NCBI RefSeq assembly: GCF_964355755.1
Contig: NC_092679.1
Coordinates: 15,612,932 to 15,676,931, forward strand
Length of the DNA: 64,000 nucleotides
From: Antedon mediterranea
Lineage: Eukaryota; Echinodermata; Crinoidea; Comatulida; Antedonidae
Direction of reading: 5' to 3'
Shown here: in pieces, positions 9,301 to 43,900 of the stretch
Layout of the letters: the number at the start of each line of letters is the position of its first letter
Position numbering within the stretch: position 1 is the first letter of the stretch
The notes under the pieces: model-generated
Databases searched by the model: none
What the model saw: the letters and a program-made list of their open reading frames with translations, nothing else
What the model was told of the DNA's origin: nothing
Made by a program: the position numbers and the translations under genes

Positions 9301-9624
9301 TTGGAATTTTTTAAATTGAATCTTTTTGCAAATAAAACATAACTAGGCTAGTCTAGCCTAACGGAAATAGGCCTACAGTAGGCTAGTAGGCTAGGCCTAA
9401 CTCAATTAATTTCTTCAAGCTGACACCACCATCACCGCCTCCTGCACTGCATCATCATCACCAGGCAGCACCCACAATCTTTCGTTTGGCTCACACTTAC
9501 TTTCTTTCAACTTTTGGCGAAAATCTGGGGCACTTCGCCTTTTCCTATCGAAATAAACACAGTATCCCAGAAATATAGAACCTGCTATTCCAGCTATAAG
9601 GCCTACAGCAGCTTTAGAATTCAT
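6372..9624 (-). CDS. TOMM20: TOMM20, mitochondrial import receptor subunit
   Basis: Tom20 is an outer-membrane receptor of the TOM complex that recognises the presequences of imported mitochondrial proteins. The five coding exons, in transcript order, are 9501-9624, 9012-9067, 8456-8537, 6775-6917 and 6372-6458. All junctions are GT/AG and keep frame, giving 163 residues. The N-terminus has a single membrane anchor (AAVGLIAGIAGSIFLGYCVYF) followed by DRKRRS. The cytosolic domain carries PEAVQKFF, LGEELLAQG and the TPR-like VCGQPQQLLQVLQQTLPPQ, and the acidic tail ends SLAEDDELE. Vertebrate TOMM20 is about 145 residues; the extra length is a lysine-rich linker (exon 2) and an alanine/serine-rich stretch before the tail. 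An in-frame ATG three codons upstream (9631-9633) could also be the start; I chose the one that gives MNSKAAV because it fits the family. Introns 3 and 4 are full of MITE and SINE insertions. Confidence 0.95.
6505..6663. mobile_element. MITE family A, copy 2 (TOMM20 intron 4)
   Basis: The ends are CTCTGTCTACACTATCAAAC and the complement GTTTGATAGAAGACAGAG. The interior carries an extra direct repeat of GATATGCCCAAATATGGTAG, so it is longer than the other copies. It lies between TOMM20 exons 4 and 5. Confidence 0.7.
6988..7132. mobile_element. MITE family A, copy 3 (TOMM20 intron 3)
   Basis: The left end is AAGCTCTGTTTACACTATC. The right end is AAGTTTGACATTGCAAGTC followed by TACAGAGCTT. The core GTGCCCAAATATGGTAGTGA is shared with copy 2. 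It is palindromic over most of its length. Confidence 0.7.
7190..7320. repeat. Dispersed repeat around ATCACATGT, copy 1
   Basis: The segment contains a palindrome-rich core (ACATGTGATACATATGTGAT) followed by CAGTATTACAAAATATGCCT and ATGATACTGG. Related segments occur at about 43137-43275 and about 59580-59645. It is probably another short inverted-repeat element, with ends not well defined. Confidence 0.4.
7449..7816. mobile_element. MITE family A, copy 4, split by a SINE insertion
   Basis: The left half (7449 to about 7550) starts AAAGCTCTGTCTATAATATC. The right half (about 7778-7816) reads TTTGTCAAACTAGTTTGATA and ends ACAGAGCTTT. The two halves are separated by a tRNA-derived SINE, so the SINE inserted after the MITE. 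Confidence 0.65.
7552..7775 (+). mobile_element. tRNA-derived SINE, nested in MITE copy 4
   Basis: The head resembles a tRNA. An A-box-like GTAGCTTGGTGGTTAATG is followed about 35 nt later by a B-box-like GGGTTCAATCCTGACC. A body containing GTTGTAACTCATGACTCTTA follows, ending in an A-rich run. It does not fold into a canonical tRNA, so it is a retroposon rather than a tRNA gene. Confidence 0.6.
7840..7965 (+). mobile_element. SINE-like fragment with tRNA B box
   Basis: The segment holds GAGGTTCTGGGTTCAAATC, a B-box-like match, preceded by a degraded tRNA-like head (TTAGATTGATGGTTTCAATG). It lies in TOMM20 intron 3, next to the retroelement fragment at 7975-8268. Confidence 0.45.
7975..8268 (+). 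pseudogene. Broken retroelement end, GIY-YIG/Penelope-like C-terminus
   Basis: Two reading frames together resemble the C-terminal region of Penelope-like and related retroelement proteins. One frame gives DHAAQENHIIDWEKILDRL (about 8022-8078) and then stops. From about 8089 another frame continues as PFKRRIREAIQIRKRG, followed by NAINRDEGAVYLDHVYTSLL. The pattern H-x-IDW, then KEA-IR, then NRDEG is what I recognise. A frameshift near 8080 separates the parts, so the copy is dead. It lies in TOMM20 intron 3 on the opposite strand. The family name is inferred from motif memory, and LTR or DIRS elements with similar tails are possible. Confidence 0.5.
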
Positions 9625-9799
9625 TATTAACATTTTTATTTTTCTTAGGCCCAACACATGGGCAGTCTTCCGAAAAGTTTTACAGGTACTAACTAAATTT
9701 CGCCTAAAACATTTTTGTATAAGAGAAACAGTACTACGTAACCATGGTGGACCGCAAAATATACGTGTTTTAGTTGGTGCGTTGTTTAATAAGCACATG

Positions 9800-10454
9800 C
9801 TTTATTATGCTAATTTAAAGGTCAAAGTTGGTTATACTTAGCAACATCCCAAACTCATTATAAACAGGCAATGGATAGATCAGATTCAGGTGTTGTTTTT
9901 GCCTAAAATAAAATCAAAATTCCTGTGATACGTATGTAAATATATTCCACTTGTCGAAAATACAAAATGTAAGAATTTTTAGTCGAATTCGAATATCAAG
10001 TGATGAGCTAGGATAGTAGTAGCTAGGCCAGGTAGTTTTTAGTTAGAAAAAGGCCACCACCACCAGACCAGTTCTTATAGTACTGTAGCTAGAAGATAGA
10101 TAGTCTTGTAGGCCAGGCTATGCATAATTTTTTTTAAGACAGGGCTTTGTCTTTTTAGTAGCCTACTTGAAGAGGTTAACGGCATGTGCATGTAATTTAT
10201 GGTTATTAAACTTCTTATTATAAACTAAATCTTGACAGGCCTACCGCAATTAATGACATAATCAAAATTCAAGATATAAATGTTCCTTTTTTTACACTAT
10301 ACCATGACTATACGTACAACATCGACCACCATGCTGATACAAAAATAATAAAATGCACGTTAAACCAAGAAGTTAGGTTTCTTTTTACTAACAAAATACT
10401 CAAATGAATAATGTGATCATTGATTTTTATTCAGTAAATTATTAGAGGGCATCA
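9800..10454. promoter_or_regulatory. Shared upstream region of the divergent TOMM20 and SPRY-TIR genes
   Basis: The two genes point away from each other, with about 830 bp between start codons. The interval should hold both promoters and 5' UTRs. I see no TATA box that I would defend and no clear CpG island. An in-frame TAG lies four codons upstream of the SPRY-TIR ATG, which supports that start. Confidence 0.4.
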
Positions 10455-12857
10455 ATGGACGGTTTTCACTACTCGGAGAATATCCAACAAGGAGAGGGAG
10501 ATGGTGATGTTGTCATCGTTCCTGATCTTTCAGACAAATCCCAGCATTGGGTTTACGCCCAGTCTACCACGGAATGCCTGTCAGAAGAAAAACCATATTT
10601 TATGGTGACAATTGTTGAATTAGGTATCAGTGGTATTATCATAGTAGTGGTACTGTAGCTTGGAGGCTGAAATTGAAATAATCCAAGGTCCTAAGTTCAA
10701 ATTCTGCCCCAGTACCATGATTTTTCTTATGATCAAAACAACACCACTACCTACTGTAAAACCTTGCACATGATATTTTAGCTCTAAAAAATTATTGATG
10801 GATATTGCTTGTCCTGGTGGTTAACACATTGACTGCCAAGCCATTTTCCGTAATTTCTGTCCCAGTGCCAAGTCCCGTTTACATATTAAATTACAGTTTG
10901 AAAGTGTAACATCTGGTCATATATCTGACCCCCATCCTCTGACCCACCCTATCATCGAGAGATAAAAACAGTAAACCACACTGAATCATTTCATCCTTTA
11001 TTATTTTTATTTACTATTAGCGCAATTTATGACATGTTTGAGATGATTATATTGAGTGTGAGGGCGCCATCGTATCAACCATATTCAATGCATGAGGGAA
11101 TAAACACAAACAAACATATGACATTTATTTTTAGATTATCGTTTACGTACATCATTCATAAACTGCCATGCTATAATTCCTGTTCCAATCACCACTGCCA
11201 GCGATTCTACATACAATACAAAAGTGCTACGATTTTGACGTAGTATTACGTCTTGGCAAGTAGCGACACGCAATTTTTTACGTATAAATACGCCGTGGCA
11301 GTGAACGTGTTAAATAATAGTATAGAGAAGAATGCATGATTTTTTATAAATTTTTTTATATAATTATAAAAATGTATATCCATTATTTTCAGCAAAAGAT
11401 GCCACTGTTGCTCTTGGAATCGGTAGCGAGACATACCTAGATACCGACGATAAAGATGACGAAGAAACACCGCAAACGATAAAGAAGAAGTTTTCAATGG
11501 CATATTTTAGCGATGATGGCAGTATAGCAAATCCAGCGAGATCAAGTGTATCGGAAATGGCTCCTACTTACAAAAAAGGTAAAAAAGACAGAACCCATAT
11601 CAACAGTGTCCAGTTAATACGACATAATATATAGGCCTACAGTATTATAAGATGACAGCAATTTTAACATGGTATCATTATTATTCATATCATATTCATA
11701 TTTGCTTTATTTTAGGGGATAATGTGGCTTTGTTGTTGGACTATCTTGACAACAAGCGAGCATTAGTTTCGTTTTTGAAAAATGAAGAAGTTGTTTTTCG
11801 ACAGTGGATGAAAAAGGAGATTTTACTACCCACCATCAATGTCTGGTGGGGGTCGGCAGAACTCGGTGTCACATGGTCTTCTGATTTAGCAGCCATACCT
11901 CAGTTTGATTGTGTAAGCTATGACAATAGATAAAACTGAAATACTGAATCATGATATTATTCAGTTATGCAATAGTTAATATACATCTATCCTTATCACT
12001 AATAATAGGTTGTTTTATTAGGCATATCGGATTGATCTATTTTGAGGTCACGACCTAGCTTTTTGATCTACTGTTTCTATCTGAGCTGTGCTAGTAGATC
12101 TTTTGTGAGCAATTTAAAAAAGTCGAGTGAATAGAGGGGTTTCGCAATCTTACGAATACGATAACGAAAACAGATACGTCACGCACACGTATTCGTTTTC
12201 GTAAGCCATAAAAAAATCTGTTTCGCATGGCAACGAAATATTGAGGCGCGTCCAAAATATGACTGCGGTAAATTTGAGCAAAGCGCATGTACGTGTTGCT
12301 TGACTGCCTAGGCCTAGCGTAACATCAAAGCGAGTGAGGACTTTAAAAACTGCTATTTATCAAAATTTACTTGGCATTTTAGTAAATTACTTTAGTAAAT
12401 TACTTTCAATAAATCTATAATTATATTATAATCATGAATCATTCCTGATTCAAATGCAAAATGTGCAAATAGATAAAAAACTATACTCGTTTTGTAGTTA
12501 CGAATATGACTGGTGATATTCGTCAACACGAATACGCTTTACGAATATGAAATGGGGATCAGCTCAAAAGTTTCACAAATGTATGACGTATCCGTTATCG
12601 TATTCGTAAGGTTGCGAAACCTCCCTATTTAAGAAAGTCGAGTCATTTACACCTATTGACTCAAAGCAAATTTTAAACCATCATCAATCAAATTGTGTTT
12701 AAAATTACAAACAATAATGCTTTTTTTCTTAATTTTTTTCAGGAAAATCTTTCCCAGTGGTCAATGCCAGACTTTGTGAGTGTAGATGACGATACATTCC
12801 ACATGAAGTCTGCCTCTGGACCTGCTGCTCTCCAGTCCCCATGCCCATTCGTAGAAG
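10455..12857 (+). CDS. SPRY-TIR gene exons 1-4: first SPRY-like module and linker
   Basis: Exons 1-3 encode SPRY-like module 1, with a strand ending FMVTIVELG, then ALGIGS, AYFSDDGS, GDNVALLLDYL, VSFLKNEEVVFRQ and LPTINVW. It is the most divergent of the four: the usual GGFYP element has been replaced. Exon 4 begins a linker (ENLSQWSMPDFVSVDDDTF) that leads into module 2. Intron phases are 1, 1, 0 and 1. The same phase run recurs in exons 8-11. Confidence 0.75.
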
Positions 12858-15800
12858 GTAACTAATTTACATTTTACCTTGGTTACCACAAAATTCAAAC
12901 CGTTGCTTTCACGATGTGCTGATATAGCTTCCTCTACACTAGACATACGACATCAACAGTGCCGATAAAAAAAAAACCAAATGCATGTTTCATTCCAATG
13001 AAGTCAAGAATTGAAAATTCTTCTACAGGAATAGGTGTCGCCTAAATAGGGGTTTGCCATAATGATATAGATATTGACTTTTCATTGCACAGGAAAATGT
13101 TCCCTGAACAGGCTGTCCCAAAGGAGGGAATCTAATGATGCTTAACTCGTTTTCCCTCATTTTGGTATATCAAATAATAATTCTACTTTTTGTCACTACA
13201 GATACCTACTATGAGATTACACTATGTAACATGGGAGAAGGTGTTAAGCTTGGACCTGTGATAGGCCTAACATCTGCTTACATTGAAGAGGACGAGTTGC
13301 CAGGAAATACGACTGGAGCTATCGGATATAGCGCCGTAGATGGTGCAATTATGTGTGAAACAATGTTTAAAGGTAAGCACAAAAGAGACGGGAATCGTCG
13401 AAAAGGTTGGCCCATGGTTAGAGGCGCAATTAAACAAGTTGAAATTGTTTACATTATGTATGGCAACTTCTTTACAATGTAAAAAATGTAGCTACTAGGG
13501 AGTTTTCGCAACCTTACGAATACGATAACGAAAACGGATACGTCACACATTTGTGAAACTTCTGAGCTGATCCCTATTTCATATTCGTAAGGCGTATTCG
13601 TGTTGATGAATATCACCAGTCATTAACTAAGTCAGTAACAAAAAAACGAGTATAGTTTTTGATCTGTTTTGCACATTTTGCATTTGAATCAGGAATGATT
13701 CATGATTATAATATAATTATACTTTTATTGAAAGTAATTTACCAAAGTAATTTACTAAAATGCCAGGTCAATTTTGATAAATAGCAGTTTATAAAGTCCT
13801 CACTCGCTTTGATGTTACGCTAAGCCTAGGCAGCCGAACACCAAGCAACACGTACCTGCGCTTCGCTTAAATTTACCGCAGTCATATTTTGGACGGCGCC
13901 CTCAATATTTCGTTGCCATGCGAAAAACGAATACGTGTGCGTGACGTTTTCGTTATCGTATTCGTAATATTGCGAAAACTCCCGATTATTTATCTGTCCT
14001 CAACAATCGTAAAAATGTATCATCATATACAATTCACTGTAGAATGCATTCAGAGAGCCTTCATGTGCAACGAGGAGATCGAGGAGGAGACAATTATTGT
14101 TGATAGAAATAAAGTCAAAATATGCATTTAAAACTACGTGACAAAAAAATGCGATGTGCCCATATATGGACATGATGATGTCATATCACTACCATATTTG
14201 GGAACATCAAACTTTTTTTGTCAAACTAGTTTGATAGTGTAAACAGAGCTTTATACATGTTCAGTTTATCATTTCTTATTATGTCATTATCGATAGTCAA
14301 CTCTCCCAATATCGGACACTCTGAAAACTGTAAACTTCTCAAAACCAGACTTTCCATTTTACCATTAAAAACACATTTCAAATACCCGACTTTCTGGAAA
14401 ACCAGACATATTTGGAGAGTTGACCGTATACAGTATAATCACTCTCACTGGTGACCAGGATAACAACCAATAATATTATGTAATAAAACTATCTCTTCTC
14501 ATTGTAGTTCAAACACTTGGGAATGAAGCAAAATGTAAACAAGGTGATGTCATCGGATTAGGCTTGCTATTTGCCGACAAGAACATCACTGGAAGACGTT
14601 TAGAGCAGCCAGTGGTTGTGTACTTTACTCGCAATGGGGAGGTACTATTTCATCAATGCATTGATCAGCCTTCTGGTGGATTCTATCCAACTATTGGACT
14701 AGCTGCTCCAGGTATTTAAAACATTTAAATCATCTTTATCAATATTGTGATGTCATCATTGCTGTTATGATTATTATAATTATTGTATTCAGTTACTTTT
14801 GCAATTGAGTAAGGGCCACTTAGTGTTACTATTTTCCAGATATTGAAGTTTCTTATCTTTTTTATGTCATACCATGAATCTTTGTTTTACACTTATACAG
14901 AGTCTGTGGTGCGAGTAAATATGAAGGCAACATCACCAGATATACCTGAAGAGGAGGCATGGATAAAAGAGGCAATGAAACCAAAACCATTAACGTTTAT
15001 GGGTAAGTCATTTGTCAGGCATGTGCAGCAAGTAAAGTAGCAAGTTGGTGATATAGCATGATGGTAGTACGGTGGCATGATGTAGTGCTATCACATAATG
15101 TTAGTGCTTATAGTGTTTTGGCAGCCATGTGCCATGAAGGTGATGCTATAGCATGATGGTACTATAGCACTGTAGCATGATGTAGTGCTATTGCATAATG
15201 GTAGTGCTTATAGCATGATGGCAGCCATGTGGCATGCTATATAACATGATGTTGGTGCTATCACATTATAGTAGCACTGTGGCATAATGGTAGTGCTATT
15301 GCATGATGGAAGTGCTAATAGCATGATAGTAGCACTGTGGTACAAGGGTAGCACTGTAGCATGCTATAACATTATATATTTTAATTATTGTGTATTTAGG
15401 GTTTATTTTCCATTCACAGTTCTTGAGATGCCTAAACCTCACGATGTGACCCATGAAGAAGGTGAAACTACAGGCCTGTTCCGCTATCATGAACAAATTG
15501 GACCACCAACTGGGCAAGATTCAAGTACAATTAGACCCGTGGCTAATGTTGTAAGCGGGAAATTAATTCAGTTACAAAGGACGTTGACCCCAGAGGAACC
15601 TAGTTTTACAATCGAAATTACTGATGCAGGTGGGTTTGTGTGAAACAATGTTTAAACCTTGCTTGCCTACCCAAAGTTCTGGGTTCGAATCCTACATGAC
15701 AATGTTTCTTCTCAAATTTGAAGGGTTAAATTGTTTCTAACGAAAAATTTATCAAATACAATGTTATTTCTTTTTAGGGGAAAAAAGTATCATCAGTATG

Positions 15801-18800
15801 GGTGTTAGCAGAAGCAGGCAATCAGTTGGTTCAATGCCTGGCAAATTAACAGGAACTGCTGGCTACTATTCAGAAGGACAAATTGTACAAAATGGAGTTG
15901 GAAGCTCTAAAGCTGTGAAATATACTACAGGTAAAATGAATTATTCAAAGGATCTGACAGATCTGACTCCTTTTTCTAAAGTGTTGTATTCAGTATTTAA
16001 CTAGAGACTAGCAGCAGAAGTGATGGTAAATAGGCCTAACTTATTTGGCCTAGCTAATGACAATAGCCCCCAACAGGATTGGAAAAATTAAATATAATAT
16101 CTTAAATTTGAATAAACAAATGAGAAAAAGAGTAAAAAAAAAATTGTCCATACCGTATATTGGGATGCTGAATAGGGCCCATACAGTCTTCGTCTGGCTG
16201 TTAAATTTAATTAAAATTGTATGTCATAAGAAATGTTTTTGCAAGCCCAAGTATAAATTAATCTGAAAGTATAGTAGTAGTATTCGATAACTAAAAAATC
16301 CAACTTTGTTTAAAGCTCTGTCTGCACTAGTAGTAGTACTGTACTGTAGTTTGACAAAAAAATGTGTGGTGTGACATCATGTCCATATATGGTCACATCG
16401 CATTTTTTTGTCACATAACGTTTAATAGTGCAGAGAGAGAATGTAACATTCATTAAATTACTATTAATCATTACAGGTGATATAATTGGATGTTGCGTTG
16501 AATACTTCAGTAGTAAACAGGTTCTACGATTTACTAACAATGGTCAGCTTGTTGGAAAAGCAATCATAAGTGGCACAGAAACTGACCTTTTTCCATGTCT
16601 TGGATTCCGTGGTGAACAAAGTACGGTTAATGTGGTATGGCCGGAAAATAAACCAAATATCCCTTCTTTCAATCAGGTATGCATTGGTCAGATGTTTGCT
16701 TTACTCAGTACATTGAGAACTATTTGCAAATAAAACTCCTGAATGGGATTCGAACCCACAACCTCCAGATCACATAGCCTGGTATCTATTTTAAATTTAC
16801 ATAAAGAAGTTAGATATCAAAGGTTAACATTATAGATCAGACAAATAGATTGTAATTTTTTGTTTCTGTATCCACCATTTATACCTACGTGAATTGCTGC
16901 CATATTTAAAGTATGACAATCCTTATCCTGCATATTTCTAGAAGAAGAGGGAATAATTTTATTGACTGTGTTCACAAATCATACTTTGGCTAAGGGTAAC
17001 ATTTCACTGAATACCATTATGGCAATCTAACAACATGAAACTGAGCTCGCCTTGCCAAGATAGAAACTTGTAACGGTCCTTTCATCTTATGTCTGGCTGC
17101 AACAAATACCAAAAGTACTGTACTATGTTCATATTCTCCTTGATGTGCGATGTCCGCTAAGGAGCGTGGAAGTGACCATGTTGCAGCCACAGATAAACCC
17201 TTTGATCTCTGAAGCTCAGCATCCTGTTTTTAGATTGCCTTAATACCACTAACAGAAATTCTTATATATTTATTGCCAATACCTTGTGAAGTAATATCTC
17301 ACTTACTGTAAGTGTGATTGGTGGAACAGATGTCATTTATAATTTCCCCTCTTCTTTTGTAGGCAAGCCTTTCAAATTGGGTGATGTCACCAAAGCTGTC
17401 TATCAATGGTTTTTCAATATTTGTTGAGAATAAAACGAGAAAGTTAAAACCTTTGGTTTTAAGATCTCCTATACCACTATCAAAAGGTACAGTATTCATA
17501 GTGACATAGCCTTGCAACATGTACGTTTCACAATCTATATGTCCTATGTAATTGCATATTGTAACCTCATGCTGACTGCAGCCCTGACAGAATCTAGAGC
17601 ATGTCAAATATTTCAGATACACTAACATTTTTAAATATAACAGTAGATATTAATTTTAGAACATTTTCTCTATTAAATCTAGATTGGAAATATTTTGAGG
17701 TCAAAGTTGACAGTGGTGCTCTTCCATCCTTTGATCAAGAGCTAAGCAAAGCTCCAGCTGTAGCTCTGACTAACGACATGTCCAATCGCATTCACAAACA
17801 CCTCGCACACGACAAAGAATCGCGATACGTACGTTTAGGCTTCCGAAAGAAATCCTTCTACTGGCGAAACGATGTAGAACTTCTTACAAAAGAATCAAAC
17901 AAAGATATGATGACCGAGTTGCAGTCATATGTTAAGGTCGGGGACACAATAGGGTTTGGGGTGTTGTATTCAGGTGCAATAAAAGCAGCAGACGATCGGG
18001 CTGAACAGGCTGTGATGGTTTATTGTTGTATCAATGGGCGTGTTGTGTTTCACAAACCAGTAATGCAGCCTGTAGGAGGGTTCTATCCTTCTATTACGCT
18101 ATATAAAAAAGGTGAATATAAAATATTAAATAAGATTCAGAATATCATTGTTTATTATTCATGAATATGCATAAACATCGTCACTATTTGTGCATTCATT
18201 AAAATGCATAAACATCATCACTGGGTATGCATTCACGAATATGCATGAACATCATCACTATTTATTTATAATCATAACTTTACTTAAATTTACAGGTGAC
18301 AGAATGACAATAAATCACATGAGTGAACCACCTGTAGATCAGCTTTCATCTGATTGGTCAACTGAATTAATATCATGGACTGAGCAACTTATGGCTATTA
18401 AAAAATCACAAGGTAAGGACCACTTTTTTCTTGTGCATTTTACAAACTCCTACCATAGAGGTATAAAATCTCCGTCTCCATGCTCCGACTGTTCATACAT
18501 TGTAAATATAAATTTTGTTATGTTTTCAGAACCGAAATTGACAAATGATGACAGAAGACGAAGGGTAGCAGAATCAGTGACCCGACCTGAGAATCATTTA
18601 AATAAAGTTCATGTGTATGTACATTGTGATGAACCTCGTTACACAGAAACGACACACATACAAGCAGGGTGAGGCTGTCATTTAACATGTTGTGCTTTAG
18701 TGTTTTAGGATAGAAATTGTCCAAACCTAAAGCTTGTTTGTGTATGATAATTTGTTTTACATTTCTCCCAGGCTGGATACTCTAGGATTCCAAACCTCCA

Positions 18801-20930
18801 TGCTTGAAAAATCTGTTGCGACCAAACATTCAAATATCACAGAAGCGTTGCAGTCCTCAAATTGTGTGGTTTTATGTCTCGGTCCAGAGATTATCAAATC
18901 ACCGGCGGCTTCGTTTCTACTTCAACAAGCTAAAGAGGGTGGTAAACCTGTTATTCCTGTTTGTCTTAACAACATAGCTTGGCCACCAGAGGGCGATGTT
19001 GGCAATCGTTTAAAGCAGTTGACAGCTCATAAGATTGGTAAGATAATTTAATTAAAATTATGATGTTATAATGTTTCTGGCAATCATATCTATGTGGAAA
19101 CCAGGAGCTAGAAGAAACGATGAAATAAATTAAATAAATGAAGGCTAAGCAAAATGTAGAGAACATGCTGTTTAATATTTCAGCCCATATTGATGATACA
19201 GATATCTCAAAATTTAGGAAAATAATTTGAAAAGTATGGACGTTATCGTTTGAATCAAATTGTATGAACGCTAGTGTTAATTCTTTGATCATGGCCATTA
19301 ATCGCCATGTTCTTGATGTGTCAAGAATGCATACAGTGGAATTATTTCTTGCATTGACTTTACATACATATTTTGTCTGTTACCCTTTACAATGATTTCT
19401 TGGATTAATCTTCTTTCTTTCGATATGGATATATTACGTAACATCATGGTATTCAGAAATAAAAAGATGAATGACTGAGTAATGAATAAACAAGCAAGTA
19501 ATATACTATTCAACAAGAGGTACCTACTCCTGTGTTGAGTCATTGGTTTTCTCTTAGGCTATTTGCCAAATTTGTAATAAATAGATAAATAAAGTTGAAA
19601 TAAAAATATTTTGATGAATAGATAATGTAATTAGCTAATAATCAACGTTAATGTCAACAAAATACATCAACTATTTATTAAGTTATGAACAATAAAGTGC
19701 ATCACTATAAAATGGCGGCCATTTTTGCCGCCATCTTGGATTTCAAGGTGGCCGCAGTAAATTTGCAACGGCACACCTCGTGATTATTGAATTTGTGTCT
19801 AAGGATATTAGCTAACAAAAAAAGTTGGTGTGCTGAGTGTGTAGAAACATGGCAATGGGAGCTCTCTAAACAAGCTATTGGACCTCCGCTTATTCTTTGC
19901 ATATTATAATACTGTCACATCTATAAAATAGAGAAACTGGTCAGAGGAAGAAGAATTCAGAAAAACAGCAACAGGGGATTGAAAAACTGGGTCAAGAGAG
20001 ATGGAAAGAAACCATAATGAATTTTTGCATTTTCTTTTTTTAATTTACAGATATTTCAGAAGAGCATTATGAGTGGAGTATTGAACAAATTGGTAAATTA
20101 GCTGAAAATCTTAATGGCAAGGGGTTCAATGGGCAAGAGATAGTTGTTAAAGAGGGAGAAGCAGCAAAGATATTTTACACAGATGCACAGGTTAGTAACT
20201 AGCAACATGAGTCATAGTGCATAAAATACTTCTCAATTATCAACATTCTATTGACCAGGTGTCATAAGAAATGCCGATTGGTTTGTGAGATAACACACTT
20301 GATCACATGCTCATAGATATGAGCATGTGATCATTATGCTGTGTTGCTCTACTAGTCTTTTGATGATAATTGCTGTACTGCATATTCCTGAAATGTACAA
20401 TGATTTGGTACAATTTAGAACACCTCTCTACTTTTGTAGAATCAAGTAATGCACAAGACTGTAGCCATGAGTCATTTTTCTTTTTAAAAAAGGGGCAAGT
20501 GCAAGCGTAAGCAACAAAAAATAAATGTAGGTCTAGTCTAGTAGAAGGAAGTAATTTGTCTGCTGGATAAGTATAGTATATATAGTATATATAAAAGTTA
20601 GTAATTAGCACTCTCACTGATGGTCTCTGTTTGAAAAGGGCACTTTCGAGGCCTACGAATCCCCTAGCTACAGACAGCTACAGCACAGACAAGTGTTGAA
20701 CCCATGCTTTACACATGTTAGTTAATAGGTTATTGAATGATTTCTTTTAATTCTAGACGGGTGATGAAACTGAAAACAAACCCAGTGACCCTCAAGCTTT
20801 TAAACGAGCAGTAGAAGAAGCAGATCGAATGAACAATTCATTTGGAAATTCAAAGGCAATGGATGAACCACCAATTGCATACGAAAGGAGGCAAGGAAAA
20901 CCAAAATCAAAGGCATGTTGTATATTGTGA
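10455..20930 (+). CDS. Four-SPRY, TIR-like, CaaX-terminated protein (novel architecture)
   Basis: Seventeen exons join in one frame: 10455-10623, 11393-11578, 11716-11912, 12743-12857, 13202-13372, 14508-14711, 14901-15002, 15420-15629, 15778-15930, 16477-16676, 17363-17486, 17683-18111, 18296-18412, 18530-18668, 18772-19037, 20051-20190 and 20757-20930. The product is 1031 residues. SPRY-like modules lie at about 15-170, 190-360, 410-560 and 580-770. Hallmarks are GDVIGLG, VVVYFTRNGEVLF and PSGGFYPTIGL in module 2, and GDTIGFG and PVGGFYPSITL in module 4. A TIR-like fold spans about 815-965, and the chain ends in a basic stretch plus CCIL, a prenylation (CaaX) box. SPRY domains usually bind protein partners, TIR domains signal or cleave NAD, and the CaaX box suggests attachment to the inner face of a membrane. 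I know no characterised protein with this order; function is therefore open. The start is supported by an upstream in-frame TAG. Confidence 0.85.
10640..10730 (+). mobile_element. SINE-like fragment in SPRY-TIR intron 1
   Basis: The stretch GGTACTGTAGCTTGGAGGC followed by CAAGGTCCTAAGTTCAAATT resembles the A-box and B-box spacing of the SINE at 7552. It is decayed and has no clear ends. Confidence 0.35.
12134..12627. mobile_element. MITE family B, copy 1 (intron 3 of SPRY-TIR gene)
   Basis: This is an approximately 490-bp element with inverted ends. The left end is AGGGGTTTCGCAATCTTACG followed by AATACGATAACG. The right end is TTATCGTATTCGTAAGGTTG followed by CGAAACCTCCCT. It has no coding capacity. 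The copy at 13496-13983 is the same element in the opposite orientation. Confidence 0.75.
13202..15002 (+). CDS. SPRY-TIR gene exons 5-7: second SPRY-like module
   Basis: This is the best-preserved SPRY module. Exon 5 gives YYEITLCNMGEG, IGLTSAY and GYSAVDGAIM. Exon 6 (14508-14711) gives GDVIGLGLLF, VVVYFTRNGEVLF and PSGGFYPTIGL, the classic SPRY core in the expected order. Exon 7 (14901-15002) continues the last strand (SVVRVNM) and an acidic linker. The intron between exons 5 and 6 falls just before the GDVIGLG strand, as the exon 2/3 intron does in module 1. Confidence 0.85.
13496..13983. mobile_element. MITE family B, copy 2, inverted relative to copy 1 (intron 5)
   Basis: It starts AGGGAGTTTTCGCAACCTTA and ends ATTCGTAATATTGCGAAAAC followed by TCCC. 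Shared internal landmarks with copy 1 in reverse complement include GAATCAGGAATGATTCATGA and CAAAGCGAGTGAGG. Length and content match copy 1 closely. Confidence 0.75.
14130..14252. mobile_element. MITE family A, copy 5 (intron 5 of SPRY-TIR gene)
   Basis: It contains CGATGTGCCCATATATGGAC, then GATGATGTCATATCACTACC, and ends TTTGATAGTGTAAACAGAGC. The left inverted end is truncated. Confidence 0.65.
14290..14433. mobile_element. pogo/Tigger-like MITE (intron 5 of SPRY-TIR gene)
   Basis: The left end is ATAGTCAACTCTCCCAATAT and then CGGACACTCTGAAAAC. The right end is AAACCAGACATATTTGGAGA followed by GTTGACCGTAT, its approximate inverse. The GTCAACTCTC...CGGACA style of terminus is typical of pogo-like elements of the Tc1/mariner superfamily. 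A related half copy lies at about 22205-22330. Confidence 0.5.
15040..15365. repeat. Degenerate minisatellite GCATGATGGTAGTGCTAT (intron 7)
   Basis: Units of about 18-22 bp (GCATGATGGTAGTGCTATAG and variants) repeat irregularly through this part of SPRY-TIR intron 7. Open frames crossing it are repeat artefacts. Confidence 0.6.
15420..16676 (+). CDS. SPRY-TIR gene exons 8-10: third SPRY-like module
   Basis: Exon 8 supplies a linker (VLEMPKPHDVTHEEG) and the first strands (SFTIEITDAG). Exon 9 gives SIISMGVSRSRQ and GYYSEGQIVQ. Exon 10 gives GDIIGCCVEYF, VLRFTNNGQLVGKAI and LFPCLGF. Its splice junctions fall at the same places as in module 1 (after DAG/ELG, before GDII/GDNV and after PSFNQ/PQFDC), so it is the duplicated partner of module 1. 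The GGFYP motif is weakened to TDLFP. Confidence 0.8.
15640..15745 (+). mobile_element. SINE-like fragment in intron 8
   Basis: It contains CAAAGTTCTGGGTTCGAATC, with a near-perfect B box (GGTTCGAATC), followed by a T-rich tail with GTTTCTTCTCAAATTTGAAG. It resembles the fragment at 7840-7965. Confidence 0.45.
16312..16439. mobile_element. MITE family A, copy 6 (intron 9 of SPRY-TIR gene)
   Basis: It begins AAAGCTCTGTCTGCACTAGT. The interior has TTTGACAAAAAAATGTGTGG and CATGTCCATATATGGTCACA, and it ends GTTTAATAGTGCAGAGAGAG. The palindromic layout is as in the other copies. Confidence 0.65.
16735..16800 (-). mobile_element. SINE-like fragment in intron 10, minus strand
   Basis: CCTGAATGGGATTCGAACCC is the reverse complement of a tRNA B box (GGGTTCGAATCCC). 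Only the head part is recognisable, and there is no complete tRNA. Confidence 0.4.
17363..18412 (+). CDS. SPRY-TIR gene exons 11-13: fourth SPRY-like module
   Basis: Exon 11 (17363-17486) is a linker plus first strand, ASLSNWVMSPKLSINGF, homologous to exon 4. Exon 12 (17683-18111) encodes nearly the whole module: WKYFEVKVDSG, GDTIGFGVLY, VMVYCCINGRVVFH and PVGGFYPSITL. Exon 13 (18296-18412) has RMTINHM and a linker ending KKSQ. Exon 12 corresponds to exons 5 plus 6 of module 2 without an intron between them. Including exon 11 is necessary because exon 10 ends in phase 0 and exon 12 needs phase 1. Confidence 0.85.
18530..20190 (+). CDS. SPRY-TIR gene exons 14-16: TIR-like domain
   Basis: Exon 14 has a basic RRRRVAESVTRPENHL stretch and the first strand KVHVYVHCDEP. 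Exon 15 continues with LDTLGFQTSMLEKSVA, then SNITEALQSSNCVVLCLGPE and then GGKPVIPVCLNNIAWPP. This is the helix-strand order and wording of TIR domains: I-x-AL-x-SxxVVxxLxP, then GKPVIPV. Exon 16 gives the last helix and a linker. The position where NAD-cleaving TIRs carry a glutamate (the C-x-x-E region) reads SFLLQQA here, so the catalytic Glu appears to be missing. The assignment is by eye, so a related flavodoxin-like fold cannot be excluded. Confidence 0.7.
20301..20332. repeat. Perfect 14-bp hairpin
   Basis: GATCACATGCTCAT and its exact complement flank the four-base loop AGAT, within intron 16 of the SPRY-TIR gene. It may be the relic of a small inverted-repeat element, and no function is implied. 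Confidence 0.7.
20757..20930 (+). CDS. SPRY-TIR gene last exon: tail with CaaX box
   Basis: The final exon encodes 57 residues that are polar and probably disordered. It ends with a basic run (YERRQGKPKSKA) followed by CCIL and a TGA. C-C-I-L fits the CaaX consensus, and leucine at the last position favours geranylgeranyl transfer. The preceding lysines and arginines would reinforce membrane binding, as in small GTPases. The exon is in phase with exon 16 (phase 0), and the acceptor (TTAATTCTAG) is strong. Confidence 0.85.
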   Translation, partial: TGDETENKPSDPQAFKRAVEEADRMNNSFGNSKAMDEPPIAYERRQGKPKSKACCIL

Positions 20931-34956: not shown

Positions 34957-37900
34957 TCTTGGAATTTTTCAAGTGTCGTAGTGCCCTTCTAGCTGCTGTG
35001 GCCTTGGCTATACGATAATTTCTTCCAACACCTTTCCATTCAACTTTGCCATTTTTGCTGGCAACACACACAGTTACTCTTGTCTTTCCGTCAACAGTTC
35101 GCACAGGTTTGCTAAAATTAGAGAGACACAAAGTTTAAATGTGTAGATAAAAATTCTAGTCGATGTTGAGTTGCAGCGAGATGCATTGAATTACATTGAG
35201 TGTACCAAATTCAACAAGAAAAGAGGTAATGAGGCTTTACCTTGATGAGTCCAGATTGACAGATTCAACTTTAACAATAAGACTGTTAAAATTGCCCAAT
35301 CAAATGGATCACAAATTATGGGATCGTAGTTTGTAAACAAAATATGTGAATTCTCAAATCCATATAAACAGTTTTACAATTTTAAGTTGTGGAATGGGAT
35401 CCTTTAATATAATTAAACAGGGATATACAGGATTTTAATATATGTTTTATTGTATTACCAGTAATAGTAGTAAAAATTAAAATTAATTACTAATAATGTT
35501 CTTGTGTTGTAGTATGTTTTAAGGTATTGTACATCAGTTGCATTAATTGTTTGTGTTTAAATAGTGTTTCTAGGGGTTTTTAATGCTCTCCTTAAACATG
35601 TTTAAACACTGTTTTAATCATGTTTAGATAGTGTTTCTGACATGTTTAAACATAGTGTTATATAATATTTAAATAGCGTGTTTATTTTGGTTTTTTTAAG
35701 GACAATATCTATACAAAATGTATTTAAAGATCATGTTTTTTATAATAGAGCAAAGATTAACGAAATATTATTTTTTTAGACATTAGCAGTGAGTGTTAAA
35801 GTTTCTAACACTGAGGTCAAACATCTGACCTCTAGTCTGTTTGTATTTACTAAGCCATACAAAGAAACTTGTAGGTTACAACGCAGCCACTTTAGCTGTA
35901 AGGTAAATGGGTCAACTTTGGTTTTACTGATGCCATGTTTTATGTACAGCTTTTTGGTCCAATATCATACATATTCCATAATATGTAGGTCTAATCACTT
36001 TATATGAAAACTAACATTTGTTATAAATATTACTTTTAATTATTGGATATTATATTTTTACAAAAATTAAACTTTTGCTAAAATACACAATTTATAATTT
36101 TCCATAGGTAAACAAACGGAAAAATACATTCTTTCATGCATAGAAATACATTTGCGCAGAAATGGCACTAAACATTAATTGGCTGGATGGGTGATTTAAC
36201 ATCCTCTTTGGTTATCAAATTGTATAATAAAATCATACCCAAACTTTGCTGTTTCTGGCTCCATTTCAAGCAATTCACGAACAGGTGAGATGGGTAATTC
36301 AGATGCAAACATCTCTGCATTTAGGAAAAAACAGATTCAAAATCAAAATTAAACTTGTTAAAATGTTTTAGAATGTTAAAAAAGGGTATGCAATAGAACA
36401 GACAATCTGTGGATTTTATTTAATCACTTACCTTACAGAAAAATGAAGGGTTTTTAAAAACTTCATGGGCCGGGTTGAGAAGGGGTTGCGTTTAATTATA
36501 TAGGTAATACAATCTACCAAAACGAAACTTTTCTTCAGGGCCAAAAGGTCTCAAATTCCTTTTATTTGCTATAAAAAATACATTTTACATCGACTGATGG
36601 AATCCATCATGGGCACCAATGAATTTTTTTTCTAGTACAAATATCTTGTACATCCTGATACCACATATTACATACCACATACAAAAAAGAATTGCTATCT
36701 ACCTATTTGTGGCCTCATCATAGTGTAGTAGACATCCCAGACTGCCTTTAGCGACATACCACTGTCAAGATAGATAGCGCCAGCTACCGATTCAAAGATA
36801 TCGCCAAGAGCTTTCGGTACTTCAATGTCTTCACCCTCCTCTTCGTCGCCTTCATCCATTGTCAGCTAACAAAGAGTAAAAGAATCCATTAGCATGTTGT
36901 CCAGTATGCAAATACATAACTAAAGTTTTTCGTAATGTTTGCACATGCCCAGAACGATTTGTTTACAAAGTAGTTGGAGTTTGTGCATTGCATGTTGGGA
37001 AATAGTGTTAAAGTTAACATGCTCTTGTGAAAACTCCCTATTGTCAAAGAATAATCCAATAAAATTTTACCTGTGAATCCATTCCTTGTATTTCTTGCTT
37101 CTTGTGTAGAAACTCAACAAACTTGTCAACGATACTGAACAATTCTGGACTGAAAGCCTTGAAATACTTATGGTATTCAAACTTGACTGCCAACGATGCA
37201 AAGATGTTGTTATTGACAAGAGCTGACCTCATGTCAGTGAGTGCTCCTGGTGATAGCTGCTGATGGTTGTTGTACAGATGACATGTGATCAGGTAATCTA
37301 AGATGGCATCTCCTAGAAATTCAAGTCTGTAAAATTCAAAGATAAAACGTAGGCTGGTTTCAAAAATTGTAACAGATAGGTGTACCATATTAAGCTAGGT
37401 TCCCAATAAGGACACAACGCAAGGACGTAGATGCAGGTGAGTTGACCAATGACATTGGATATTACTATATCAGTGCTCTGTAGTTTGTGTCGAACAAGAT
37501 TTTTTTCAATATCAATCATATGGAATGCCAAGTGTGAATTATAGAAAAGTAAATACAAACCTTTGATAACAGTCTGTAATCATATTCTTGTGGTAAGAAG
37601 CATGTGTAAATGCTTGTAGTAAGTACGACTTGTCTTTAAATGTGTAATTGATATTCTCTTCAAACTGATCAAATCCATTCAACAGAAATACCAACTTGTC
37701 ATTTGCATGTGGTACTTGACCCAAGAAAGGGGATGGCGGCTGTTCTATTGTACCAAACAGCTTGTTGATAGGTACACCAGTATCTCCATTTGGTTCGTCA
37801 ATGGGTGGCAGAACCTTTAAACCTAACCATGACATAAAGAGGAGAGTGTTCCTTGATCCACATGACACAAGGTAGCAACCTATCAATGCTTCAATACAAT

Positions 37901-40900
37901 CTGCAATGCTCTTGTCAGACAAACCTTGCTGAGTGTGGATCTCATAAGGAAGATCTGGTGCCGGGGTCTTTGGCTTCGTTCTTGAGTATGTCAATTTTGG
38001 AATGTCATCTGGATCCTGTAAAGTGAAAGAAGACTTGATGACTGAACCAGAGGTGTTACCATTAAATACTGGCATCTGATAAGTACTGGAATATAAGTCA
38101 TCATCATCGCTAAGGTCACTTAAGGAGTCATCATAGTCGTATGTGTCAGTATTAACTTCATTTGGATCCCATTGACTAATTGGAAAACTTGGTTCTTCCT
38201 CTGATATTAGCATCTCTGGATCTACAGCTGCGATTTCTTCTACCATGAAACCTGGAGGAAGCCAATTTGAAGCTGGATCAAACAAAGTCATGATCATTTT
38301 CAGTGGCAGGTCTTTTTTCTTTCCAAGACAGTATAAGTTAAAGTTGCTAACTTGCTTGCTTCTCATAAAAGAGAGCTTTCCTTCATGACGTTTTGGATAC
38401 ATGCAGTAAAGATAAATGGTGACAGCCTGCTTGAGGAAAGAGTCACCTAACATTTCCAGACGCTCCAGGTTAAAGCCATCATTTGCATTTGACATTGTCA
38501 AAGCTTGTAATATTGTTGCAGGACTTGCACCAATACAAGAGGAAGAATCACATTCATGATCTTCTAATGAGGCCTTTAGAAAATCTCTTTCTACATCAGG
38601 TGTGCATACACCATTCATCTCCTCTAGAGGGTTAATTTCCCCTTCTTCAAGGTGTTTTGTGTGATTTTCTTGGTTGTCTGGTTCCTCATTGTAATCTGTG
38701 CTAGTTGGACCATCCATATTTAGACCTTCCCAGCCAAATGTCAAATTTGGGAAGGGATACTCTCCTTCAAATGTTCTTACTCCGATTCCAGCTTCGTCAG
38801 AAACCTGCAATCGTAATTCTTCAGCAATCAACAAGGAGTTCATTCGGTACAAGATGCTCGGAAGACAAATGCATTTCCGCCAAAGAGATGCATTTATTGG
38901 ATAAACATAGCAAAATTCTGGTACTAACAGCTGTTGCTTCTGAGATGCTGCCTTTTTCTCTCCAGTACTAATTGGCAACGCTTTTCCTTTATGGTTAAGG
39001 TATCTGGGTGTTAGAAGATTTAGTCTTGATGCCATTGAATCAACATCCAGCAATGGCTGCTTAAAGTTTGTGACTTGAATGTCATATTGCTCAAAGTAGT
39101 AATCAGCAAATGTTCTAAATTTTTCCGATGGAAACTCACTGGAAACTGTTCGAGTCTTAGAAATTTCAGCGACATAAAATCTTTGAGGTTGGTCAACGTT
39201 ACGATAGATGGGTGCTACTACAGCTTTCTCAAATTTTTCTGGTACAAAATCAAATTGCACGGTACCAAAATCTGGTAAATCCGAAGGCATGTCGAGAGCA
39301 CCAGAATGTCTGCTCATTTCTTTAAGAAATGCTAAATCTATCTTTACAGTTTTGTTATCTCCAACACCTTCTGATATCAAAGGCACAATGAGGTATGCAG
39401 ATGGAGCTGATTGTGGCTCAAACTTCAAATTTCCTTTTTTAAGACGAAGCACCTCAGAGAACATACAACAATGGAATTTCTTGCAGTTTATCTCCATTTC
39501 TTTTGTGATCTGCATGTCTTCATCAATGGCACTAATGGTGACAGCAATCTGACCACTTCTGGTGTAGATTGGAAAGCCAGGTATCTGCAACCAAAGTAAA
39601 TACCAGAGTAAAATTCTAACTTATTTTGATTTATCTATTGTTGCATTAAAATATGTGATCTACGAAATCAGTATTTCTCACCTATTACTAACTTTTTAAA
39701 TGGTAATTAGAGAATTAGTAAGAATTTACCCTTGGAATCGGTTTACTAGTCAAGATCCCGAAGCATTGAGGCGAATCTTCTGGCCTGTGTAGTTTGCGCC
39801 CTCTTGTGTTGAGTACATTAGGTAATAACTCTTTGGTTTTCATTGTTATTGCATATAAGTAACAGCGTTTCTCCGAATCGGGCTGACAGGCTTGTAGACA
39901 TACTGCTACCTAAAACAAAACAAATGTGGTATATGTAGTATAAACCAAGCAGTTATGGCAGAGGTACTGCAAATGATAATCATAAAAATTGGCACAGGTT
40001 CAAGGCAATCCTTGACCATAGTTCCAGTTCAAGTTAAGAACTTTAAACTGGAGCTCCAGTATGCTCATGTGGTTTATTTGCATATGCATATTTTTGAAGA
40101 GCAGCAGGTTACCCTGGTCTACTGGTCCATCTTATCGCCATTAATTGTGGACAGATAAGTGAGCATCGTTTGTATGGCTTTTCATGATTCCCAAAAAGAA
40201 TCCTGTCCTTGCAAACACCTTAGGTTCATTCTAGGCCACTAATTGTCTAAAAAAAAATCACATTCTAACAATGCCTGTTTTCTACAAAACTGACCTGCTT
40301 GTTGTAATACTGTCTTCGTTTGGTCGTTCCTGGCCTAGCTTGCCCTTCCACAAACTCTTCTTCAAACCCTTGATATCCATAGTTCTCAGATTCTAGGAAT
40401 GCATTCTTTTCAATTGGCAACAACCGATCACTGAGCTCTCCTGTGGTGAATAATTTGAAATGTATATTTTGAATTCCTTGGACCGTCGGGAATATTGTGT
40501 CAGGTGCTGAACTGGAGAGTGATTGGCAATTGGACTAGCATGTGATAGGCCTTGGTTCGATTGGTTTTCGGATAGGACGTAAAGCCATTGGTCCCGTGTG
40601 CATATAGTGCATGTTGTAGAACTTGGTACACTTTTCGAAAAGAGTATGGGTTTGTTACTGGGTGTGCTGATCTGTGTAGGCCATGCACTGCTGGCTGTCA
40701 TGACGTAGAGGGCCTAATCCATTATTTCCGCAGTTAAGTTTGAGGATGATATTAAATACCTTTTTAATTCAGATTCAGATAGAAAATAGATATTTACCAT
40801 GTTGATGCAGAAGTTCAATTGTCTTAAGGGCTACAGCCATTTCAGCATATTTCTTACGATTCATTATCGCACCCTTAAATAAATAAAATGAGAAAAACAA

Positions 40901-43900
40901 CACATATTAAATTAATTATGCTCGAACACTTCAATTAAAATCCATCCAACAAATTCTAAACACATGAAGACTCATCTGTGTTGGTAAATTGTGTTGAGAT
41001 CAAAAGTTTAATTGTAAATACACATAAATAAAGTACAATATCCTGAACCTGAATTGCCCGACAATTCAAGATTCACATGTGGCCTAAGAGAAAAATCCTT
41101 AAAATAACAACTATATCTAAGTGAATAGCAATTAAAGGGAAATTCATAAATATCTACAGTATTTACTTAAATGAAATACCAGGCCAAAATAAATGCGTAG
41201 CTTGTCCCACATAGAATCAGTATATATCCTGAGCGGAAACTACCAATCCGCTCTGCATTGTGTGTAAATGGTTACAAGGAATAACTTAGATTCTATATTT
41301 TTATTACCGTTACTGCTCATCTGTAAATTGGGCTTAAAGCAAAAAAATCTTGTAAGTGTAATTGGTGAATACTGTCACAACAATACAACTACCCTGTTAA
41401 ATTTACTTTCTTTGTATAAATGTACTCACTGTAATTGGTTCCCTATGAGGTGCGTTGATTGGTAGACGCAAGGTGGCTTGATAGCCAGGTGGGATACCTG
41501 ACCTCACCTGGACTACCTTACATTGGGGTGTCAGGTGAGTAAAGCTATCTCCAGGTAACTTGGCACAATACCTAAGATAATACATTATTATTATTATTAT
41601 ACATTTATAATTAGTCAAAGACGGTAGTTACAACTTTAACATTTTAATGGACTAACTTGACCAGCATGAGATATTCTAAGCAAACCAGTACTTATATAAT
41701 TTATGAATGGTAAAGATGAGGAAATCTGCGAGAGTGAGAAAAGCTTAAACAACTGTGATGCAAACCCAGAATCTTCTGTTTGATATGAAGACATCCAACC
41801 ATTAGACCACTAGGGCTTTTTATGGTATGATTCAAATCCAATATGGATAGCAACTCTTTTACACTATTGGCGTAGTACAGAAGTACAGAACTACTTCTCG
41901 ATTGTACACACGCACAACATAAATAAAATTGATACATCCCCCAATAATAATAATAATAAGATTAGGGAAAAATAAGAAATCAGTAAAGATGCGAACTTTG
42001 AAATAGAAAATGGTTTTATTACCTGTTTACTAATGGTATTGCAGATGTCATTGACACACGTGGGGCACCTTCTTCTTTGTGAGGCATATAAGGTGGTAGT
42101 AATTGGTCTGTAATATGTGCATCCAAAAGTTCTTCAGAATGTGGTTCTCGATTGTGGCACCGTCTTTGCAGTATCTATAAGACAATGTATTGATGTCAGA
42201 TGTCGTGCTTCAAATCTTTTAACTGCATGAGGCATATTAGATTACATTGCAAGACACAGATGGTAGGCGTTAAGGCCAATTTACACAGACGAGCGGTAAC
42301 GGTAAGCGGTAAAGTTGAGCGGAAAACGCAAAAATAGAATCTATGTTATTTCTTATGACCATTTACACAGAACGCGGAGCGGACGAGCGGAAATCTGCTC
42401 AGGATCGAAACAGATTCGATTTTGTGAAAATACCACGCGGTAATTATAGATTCTGGCCAACCAACGACATGATTGAAATGACGTCATCTATCAACAACTT
42501 TTTTTTGCGTCCGTCGAGTGAAAGACGACAATAAATACGAGTGCCGTAGTAGGCCTAGCCTAGTTTGCAACTTCTTTTTATTTAGAAATACAAACACCTA
42601 GGACGTGACTAATGTTCGTATAAGGATAGTGAAAAGAAAATACACATTTTAGTACGTTATTAGGCAACAATTCCCTCTAAAACTTAGGCCTGTGTGTGCT
42701 AGGCCTACTGACAGTCAGTCACATCCAGGCCAGCAGTGACTGTAACATGCATTAGCCTCGAGGCCTACACGCACCTACTTTCCACCACTCCGTTCGCGAA
42801 CTCCGCGCGCTGTGTAAATGGGAAAAGCCACACGGTTTTTCGCTTACAATTACCGCTTACCGTTACCGCTCGTCTGTGTAAATTAGCCTTTAAAGGAAGA
42901 TTAGGACTTTAGAACCGAGATAATTTGTCCTTTGACAACTGCAAATTTAGATATGGACGAAACTTAAGATAGTCAGACCATGTTTAATGCACACTTGACA
43001 ACATCTGTACAGTATATATGCATTTCTTTACTAGGCTTTTAATGGAATGGCTTCAATCTAAATTTCTATTTTACAACAATTTGACTTGAAATTAATTATA
43101 CGATTCTCAGTACTGTATTTTTACATACTAATATTTGCCCAGTATCATAGGAATATTTGGTAATACAGCATGTCAGTTGTATCACATGTGGTGCCTGTAT
43201 CATGTAAGATTAGGTTAAGGGTTAGGTTATGGTATGTATGTGAAACACATGTGATGTATACCAAATATTCCTTATACAATACTAAGATTCGGGTGATTTG
43301 ATAAACTAGTTTCTGCCTCAGCTACCTTGTCAATTTCTCTAAACTGATGAAGCATCTCCTGGAAGTCCTCGCTTTCTGAATCATTGGTTAGCATAATGTA
43401 ATACGAGGTTGCTGCCCTCGCTCGTCCTTTTGACTGAGTGTATGAACGATAGTGTTGAGGTAGATCAAACCGTACAACTACATTACAACGTGGGACGTCA
43501 ACACCTGTAACAAAATTAAAATGATAACATGACTTTAGAATTGTGTTGGCAGAGTTGATTGATTGTAAAGTGTATAATGTGTAACAGGATCTCTAACAAC
43601 CAAATCTCTGCCAGATACAAGTACAGTATCATGTCTAGCCACAATAAACAGTCTACAGTATCATGTCATCTCCTACAGCAACCTTTATCACATATGGGAT
43701 AGTGTATAGCATCTCCCGACATTATACTGTACTGTATGTTCCTTTTAGTCAGTACTGTATGAGGTTAGGTGTAAGTTAATATAGGTGCGTTGGTTGGGCC
43801 TGTTGCCATCAACAGACATCATACTGCAGACGGTTTTTATTTTATTCAACTATTATGTGACATTAAATCAATTTCAAAAGATTTTTTCACAGGGATAATT

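Follow-up and report, generated by a model that had tools for sequence, protein, structure and literature searches.

The window analysed here, 64,000 nucleotides of the genome of the crinoid Antedon mediterranea, contains on its plus strand (as for all exons below) a gene at 10455..20930. Joined at GT-AG borders, its 17 exons give a single 1031-residue frame whose start ATG at 10455 is preceded by an in-frame TAG. The encoded product, here called the four-SPRY protein, carries four SPRY modules, a TIR domain and a CaaX-type end; judged from its sequence, it is a conserved echinoderm protein with roughly an even chance of acting as a membrane-held scaffold in the cytosol. The top match among 5.8 billion proteins was P0001 (A. 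mediterranea, uncharacterized, 1047 aa), which is identical to the spliced protein once the first 16 residues of its exon 10 are removed: the NCBI model begins this exon at 16429, the spliced model at 16477. Since the extra residues occur in none of the eight remaining orthologues, 16477 is probably the main acceptor, and 16429-16476 is probably intron. The 16 residues are also the sole strongly hydrophobic stretch of the NCBI model (19-residue mean 2.13).

Three protein searches (7 matches each, among 7,988, 7,996 and 7,528 candidates) yielded nine full-length orthologues representing all five living echinoderm classes: crinoids (P0001, Antedon; P0002, Anneissia), starfish (P0003-P0005; Patiria, Acanthaster and Asterias), a brittle star (P0006, Amphiura), sea urchins (P0009, Lytechinus; P0010, Diadema) and a sea cucumber (P0011, Apostichopus). 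Class placement was looked up for one orthologue species per class and is presumed for the remaining ones. Identity to P0001 is 38-76% among the other eight, and the database names are "uncharacterized", "hypothetical" or just "SPRY domain-containing". Beyond these nine, the searches returned only P0007 and P0008, both listed with SPRY alone. The starfish query recovered neither crinoid orthologue, and relatives at ~43% identity or below may therefore escape. Since nine species from five classes are predicted to have the same fused protein, the original prediction that the 17 exons form one 1031-residue protein is borne out.

At E <= 1, Pfam finds only SPRY (PF00622) and TIR_2 in the full protein. 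SPRY matches in three stretches (E 5.3e-19, the best at 444-554), its profile is above cut-off and the fold is a beta-sandwich; both families match in 9/9 orthologues at E <= 0.1. In profile-profile comparisons (hhalign) across the nine orthologues, SPRY2 matches SPRY4 (E 1.5e-24), SPRY1 matches SPRY3 (E 2.6e-14), SPRY2 matches SPRY3 (E 2.5e-13) and SPRY1 matches SPRY2 (E 1e-8), with no long match between SPRY4 and either SPRY1 or SPRY3. The Pfam and profile matches together uphold the four modules originally predicted. Module A (SPRY1) starts in exon 1 (10455..10623, residues 1-56), continues in exon 2 (11393..11578, residues 57-118) and ends in exon 3 (11716..11912, residues 119-184). Exon 4 (12743..12857, residues 185-222) carries an LSxW linker motif and the start of module B (SPRY2), which runs through exons 5 (13202..13372, residues 223-279) and 6 (14508..14711, residues 280-347) and ends, with a linker, in exon 7 (14901..15002, residues 348-381). 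Module A' (SPRY3) is encoded by exons 8 (15420..15629, residues 382-451, its start), 9 (15778..15930, residues 452-502) and 10 (16477..16676, residues 503-569, its end), the counterparts of exons 1, 2 and 3. Exon 11 (17363..17486, residues 570-610), the counterpart of exon 4, again has the LSxW linker motif and the start of module B' (SPRY4), which continues in exon 12 (17683..18111, residues 611-753; counterpart of exons 5 and 6) and ends, with a helical linker, in exon 13 (18296..18412, residues 754-792). This A-B-A'-B' order follows from the SPRY2-SPRY4 match, the alignment of the halves and the intron positions. In a global alignment, halves 1-381 and 382-792 match at E 1.2e-52, and five of the six internal introns of the first half share residue and phase with their second-half counterparts (the ends of exons 1, 2, 3, 4 and 6 corresponding to those of exons 8, 9, 10, 11 and 12). 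The sixth, which separates exons 5 and 6, is missing from the second half, where exon 12 is continuous; the unit ends, at exons 7 and 13, have equal phase and lie six residues apart in the half alignment. Because the halves align and intron positions and phases coincide, the array is, as read from these sequences, a seven-exon two-SPRY unit duplicated in tandem before the echinoderm classes split. The exact sharing of intron positions makes the origin of the gene readable.

Exons 14-17 supply the TIR domain and the tail beyond the duplicated units. Exon 14 (18530..18668, residues 793-838) encodes a linker and the first TIR strand and helix, exon 15 (18772..19037, residues 839-927) the TIR core, and exon 16 (20051..20190, residues 928-974) the last TIR helix and a conserved post-TIR segment. 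The predicted structure matches the SARM1 TIR, its best fold match, across 818-946, which supports the TIR-like fold originally proposed for exons 14-16; ten-residue blocks across 831-970 of this first model have a predicted local distance difference test score (pLDDT) of 64-86. No TIR was among the best 50 Foldseek matches listed for it, and the TIR match came from a further comparison. Searches of the PDB with the TIR gave nothing significant, either with the single sequence (best E 0.27) or with a profile (best E 0.097, to 6wt6). Before the TIR, P0009 and P0010 (Lytechinus and Diadema) have the same insert of ~21-23 residues, hydrophobic then basic, absent in the remaining seven orthologues.

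The post-TIR segment (GKGYNG...YTDAQ...SDP) is covered by no Pfam family and has a conservation of 0.66, against 0.63 for the TIR itself. Exon 17 (20757..20930, residues 975-1031 plus stop) encodes its SDP part, a variable linker and the CaaX-type end, with the CCIL box at 20916..20927. Among the nine orthologues the last seven columns read S, K, variable, C, variable, I/L, L (SK.C..L in 9/9), so that in each a Cys flanked by aliphatic residues is fourth from the C-terminus. Mean majority conservation is 0.81 in these columns versus 0.22 in the preceding 60. As an otherwise variable tail keeps a CaaX-type terminus in every class, sequence comparison gives good evidence that this end is in use, and strengthens the earlier CaaX assignment. 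With Leu as its X, the CaaX box suggests geranylgeranyl. Hydropathy means over 19 residues reach at most 1.52 in the spliced protein; hence no membrane span is evident.

Among other explanations, the one that survives best is an immune sensor or adaptor whose SPRY array recognises ligands from microbes or from damage and whose TIR joins the Toll-like receptor (TLR)-MyD88 pathway; we consider this possible and yet unlikely. Both domain families are frequent in immunity, with parallels for SPRY in other systems described in PMC8195603. The genome is rich in TIRs, with at least 69 TIR_2 matches, counting exon pieces, at E <= 0.001; SPRY and TIR_2 family counts are lower bounds, since the gene studied, its domains split over exons, went unlisted. 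The same genome also has double-TIR genes with CaaX-type tails. At least four stand in tandem at C11:5.616-5.664 Mb, and the four copies examined (L014, 1057-3557; L021, 3837-5577; L022, 1849-4182; L023, 2320-4396) each have TIR_2 matches to two TIRs and end exons closing in CCVL, CCVS, CCVL and CCVL, respectively. In L014, the one copy scanned, a coiled-coil-like stretch lies ahead of the TIRs, as does a Death domain (E 4.2e-11), and these exons appear to form one gene. Many diversifying sensors occur in multiple copies and have fast-evolving modules. However, no second copy of the four-SPRY gene was found in the 354-Mb Antedon genome, which gives 18 matches to the protein: 17 are the exons of the gene itself, and the last is a weak one on C11 (24% identity, E 8.6e-5), to an end exon within the double-TIR array. 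None of the SPRY modules has a clearly higher rate of evolution than the TIR (mean pairwise identity 0.44-0.50 versus 0.485; all modules 0.44-0.51), and Pfam finds no leucine-rich repeat (LRR) or Death module. Such even conservation would suit conserved endogenous partners better than a fast-evolving pathogen sensor or a diversifying ligand, while still being compatible with an immune role. Together with the lack of any membrane-span-like stretch, these results weaken the "receptor-like", ligand-sensing part of the original prediction.

Less probable again is a non-immune substrate receptor of the ubiquitin type, in which the doubled SPRYD3-like module would carry substrates to an E3 ligase and the TIR would be a structural relic or a dimeriser: Pfam detects no RING, F-box or SOCS box, and the TIR is conserved as much as the SPRY modules. 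Very improbable is a TIR NADase, or maker of an adenosine diphosphate ribose (ADPR) signal, controlled by SPRY binding as in SARM1. SARM1 is indeed the best fold match, and some orthologues have acidic residues near the position of the catalytic Glu (D or E at 890 in 5/9, E at 894 in 6/9, neither common to all nine). Yet mutation of the one catalytic Glu abolishes SARM1 activity, according to PMC8635717. Three alignments (a match to 8wcf in HMMER and a BLAST stretch shared with a double-TIR gene, both ungapped, and MAFFT with six genome TIRs) place this Glu opposite residue 888, the likeliest site (a Leu codon at 18917..18919, +); the MAFFT column holds Glu in all six other Antedon TIRs aligned. 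The nine orthologues have L/L/V/T/V/V/V/V/A there. Alignments to 6wt6 and RPV1 introduce a four-residue gap that would move the Glu to residue 884, where the orthologues have A/S/R/R/L/H/H/Q/R. At neither position does any of the nine orthologues have Glu, which argues against NAD cleavage, and a SARM1-type NADase was rejected; TIR enzyme activity has probably been lost, to judge from these residues, and the suggestion that the domain acts on NAD loses ground. Finally, an artefact in which two genes were wrongly joined is hardly credible and was rejected, since nine full-length orthologues carry the same fusion.

We now return to the membrane-held scaffold. The CaaX cysteine would be prenylated, presumably with geranylgeranyl as X = Leu suggests, and would keep the C-terminal side on the membrane. 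The SPRY array would bind one or more conserved endogenous proteins and the TIR other TIR domains, so that the TIR might bring SPRY cargo to a TIR-based complex or, conversely, keep it away. By analogy, the mode of working would be like that of membrane-tethered TIR adaptors and unlike that of SARM1. The "new signalling system" first proposed is an inference rather than a result. Quite doubtful is a bolder version, an ancient echinoderm TIR branch on prenylated membranes in which the enzyme-dead four-SPRY scaffold would pair with the animal's own CaaX-ended double-TIR (Death) proteins, a shared lipid tail bringing the sensor together with a MyD88-like adaptor on the same membrane.

Several points weigh against the scaffold. 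The TIR_2 (PF13676) score, 25.0 bits in the whole protein and 27.9 for the domain alone, is just below the Pfam cut-off of 28, and overall confidence is low (pLDDT 57.8) in the model that gave the TIR match. For the better second model, the best 50 matches listed all fall within 141-569; they cover SPRY2 and SPRY3 only and are silent on its TIR. The acidic residues that some orthologues have at 890 and 894 lie close to the Glu position. Loss of the Glu is no proof of scaffold function or TIR-TIR binding, and the domain could be purely structural. Lastly, the neighbouring minus-strand genes, TOM20 on the upstream side and Dicer on the downstream side, hint at no function.

The TOM20 start frame lies at 9418-9801 (-; MAS20 E 1.3e-12), its ATG near 9624 being divergent from, and ~830 bases away from, that of the four-SPRY gene. 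Dicer pieces at 37047-45324 (-) comprise helicase, partner-binding, platform, PAZ and RNase III domains. A weak, below-cut-off match to 2-oxoglutarate (2OG)-Fe(II) oxygenases (59840-60127, +; E 9.9e-5) may mark an ALKBH-type exon. Within the four-SPRY gene, introns 3 and 5 hold two ~0.5-kb copies resembling miniature inverted-repeat transposable elements (12130-12629 and 13493-13988, in opposite orientation) with 42-44-base terminal inverted repeats, the matching arms 86-100% complementary. In intron 7, at 15042-15363, related units built around TAGTGCTAT and CATGATGG form an irregular array.

Sea stars and sea urchins serve as model animals in research on immunity and development, and in all five living classes the gene is without a functional name. 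If the scaffold is real, a lipid-tailed form would join the known means by which TIR domains are kept at membranes, and knock-down would have a defined target. About six TIR domain combinations are described for sea urchin in a paper whose main text does not contain the word SPRY (PMC2575513). In openly licensed full-text literature we found no description of SPRY-TIR, including with prenylation or sea urchin, in agreement with the earlier statement that no characterised protein has the SPRY-TIR-CaaX order. The Toll-like receptor layout, an LRR ectodomain with TIR, does not fit a protein with only SPRY and TIR_2 by Pfam and no membrane-span-like stretch, and at Pfam E <= 1 neither Death nor ARM and SAM (the MyD88 and SARM1 layouts) stands beside the TIR. 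Human SPRYD3 (PDB 2yyo) has two SPRY modules and is not known to carry a TIR, whereas the four-SPRY protein has four, a TIR and a CaaX-type end. SPRY3 matches the SPRY of RanBP9/RanBP10 by profile (E 1.5e-8); their other domains are not found by Pfam. Unlike SARM1 and C. elegans TIR-1, the four-SPRY protein is without the catalytic Glu, and Pfam finds no ARM or SAM. The STING module of the metazoan TIR-STING fusion (6wt6), its best though not significant TIR profile match in the PDB, was not found either. The Antedon double-TIR genes share with the four-SPRY protein a TIR of the WPPEG type and a closely similar tail (E 3.6e-11 by BLAST against four sequences, unfiltered and with the low-complexity tail included), but they have two TIRs, the second keeping the Glu, a Death domain in L014 and no SPRY seen. 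TIRAP and TRAM are membrane-tethered TIR adaptors, and the proposed likeness to them is that of a TIR kept at the membrane without a membrane span. The sequence match of TIRAP to the four-SPRY TIR is not significant (E 0.87), and where TIRAP and TRAM have a short N-terminal region the four-SPRY protein has its SPRY array, and its anchor would be the C-terminal CaaX box.
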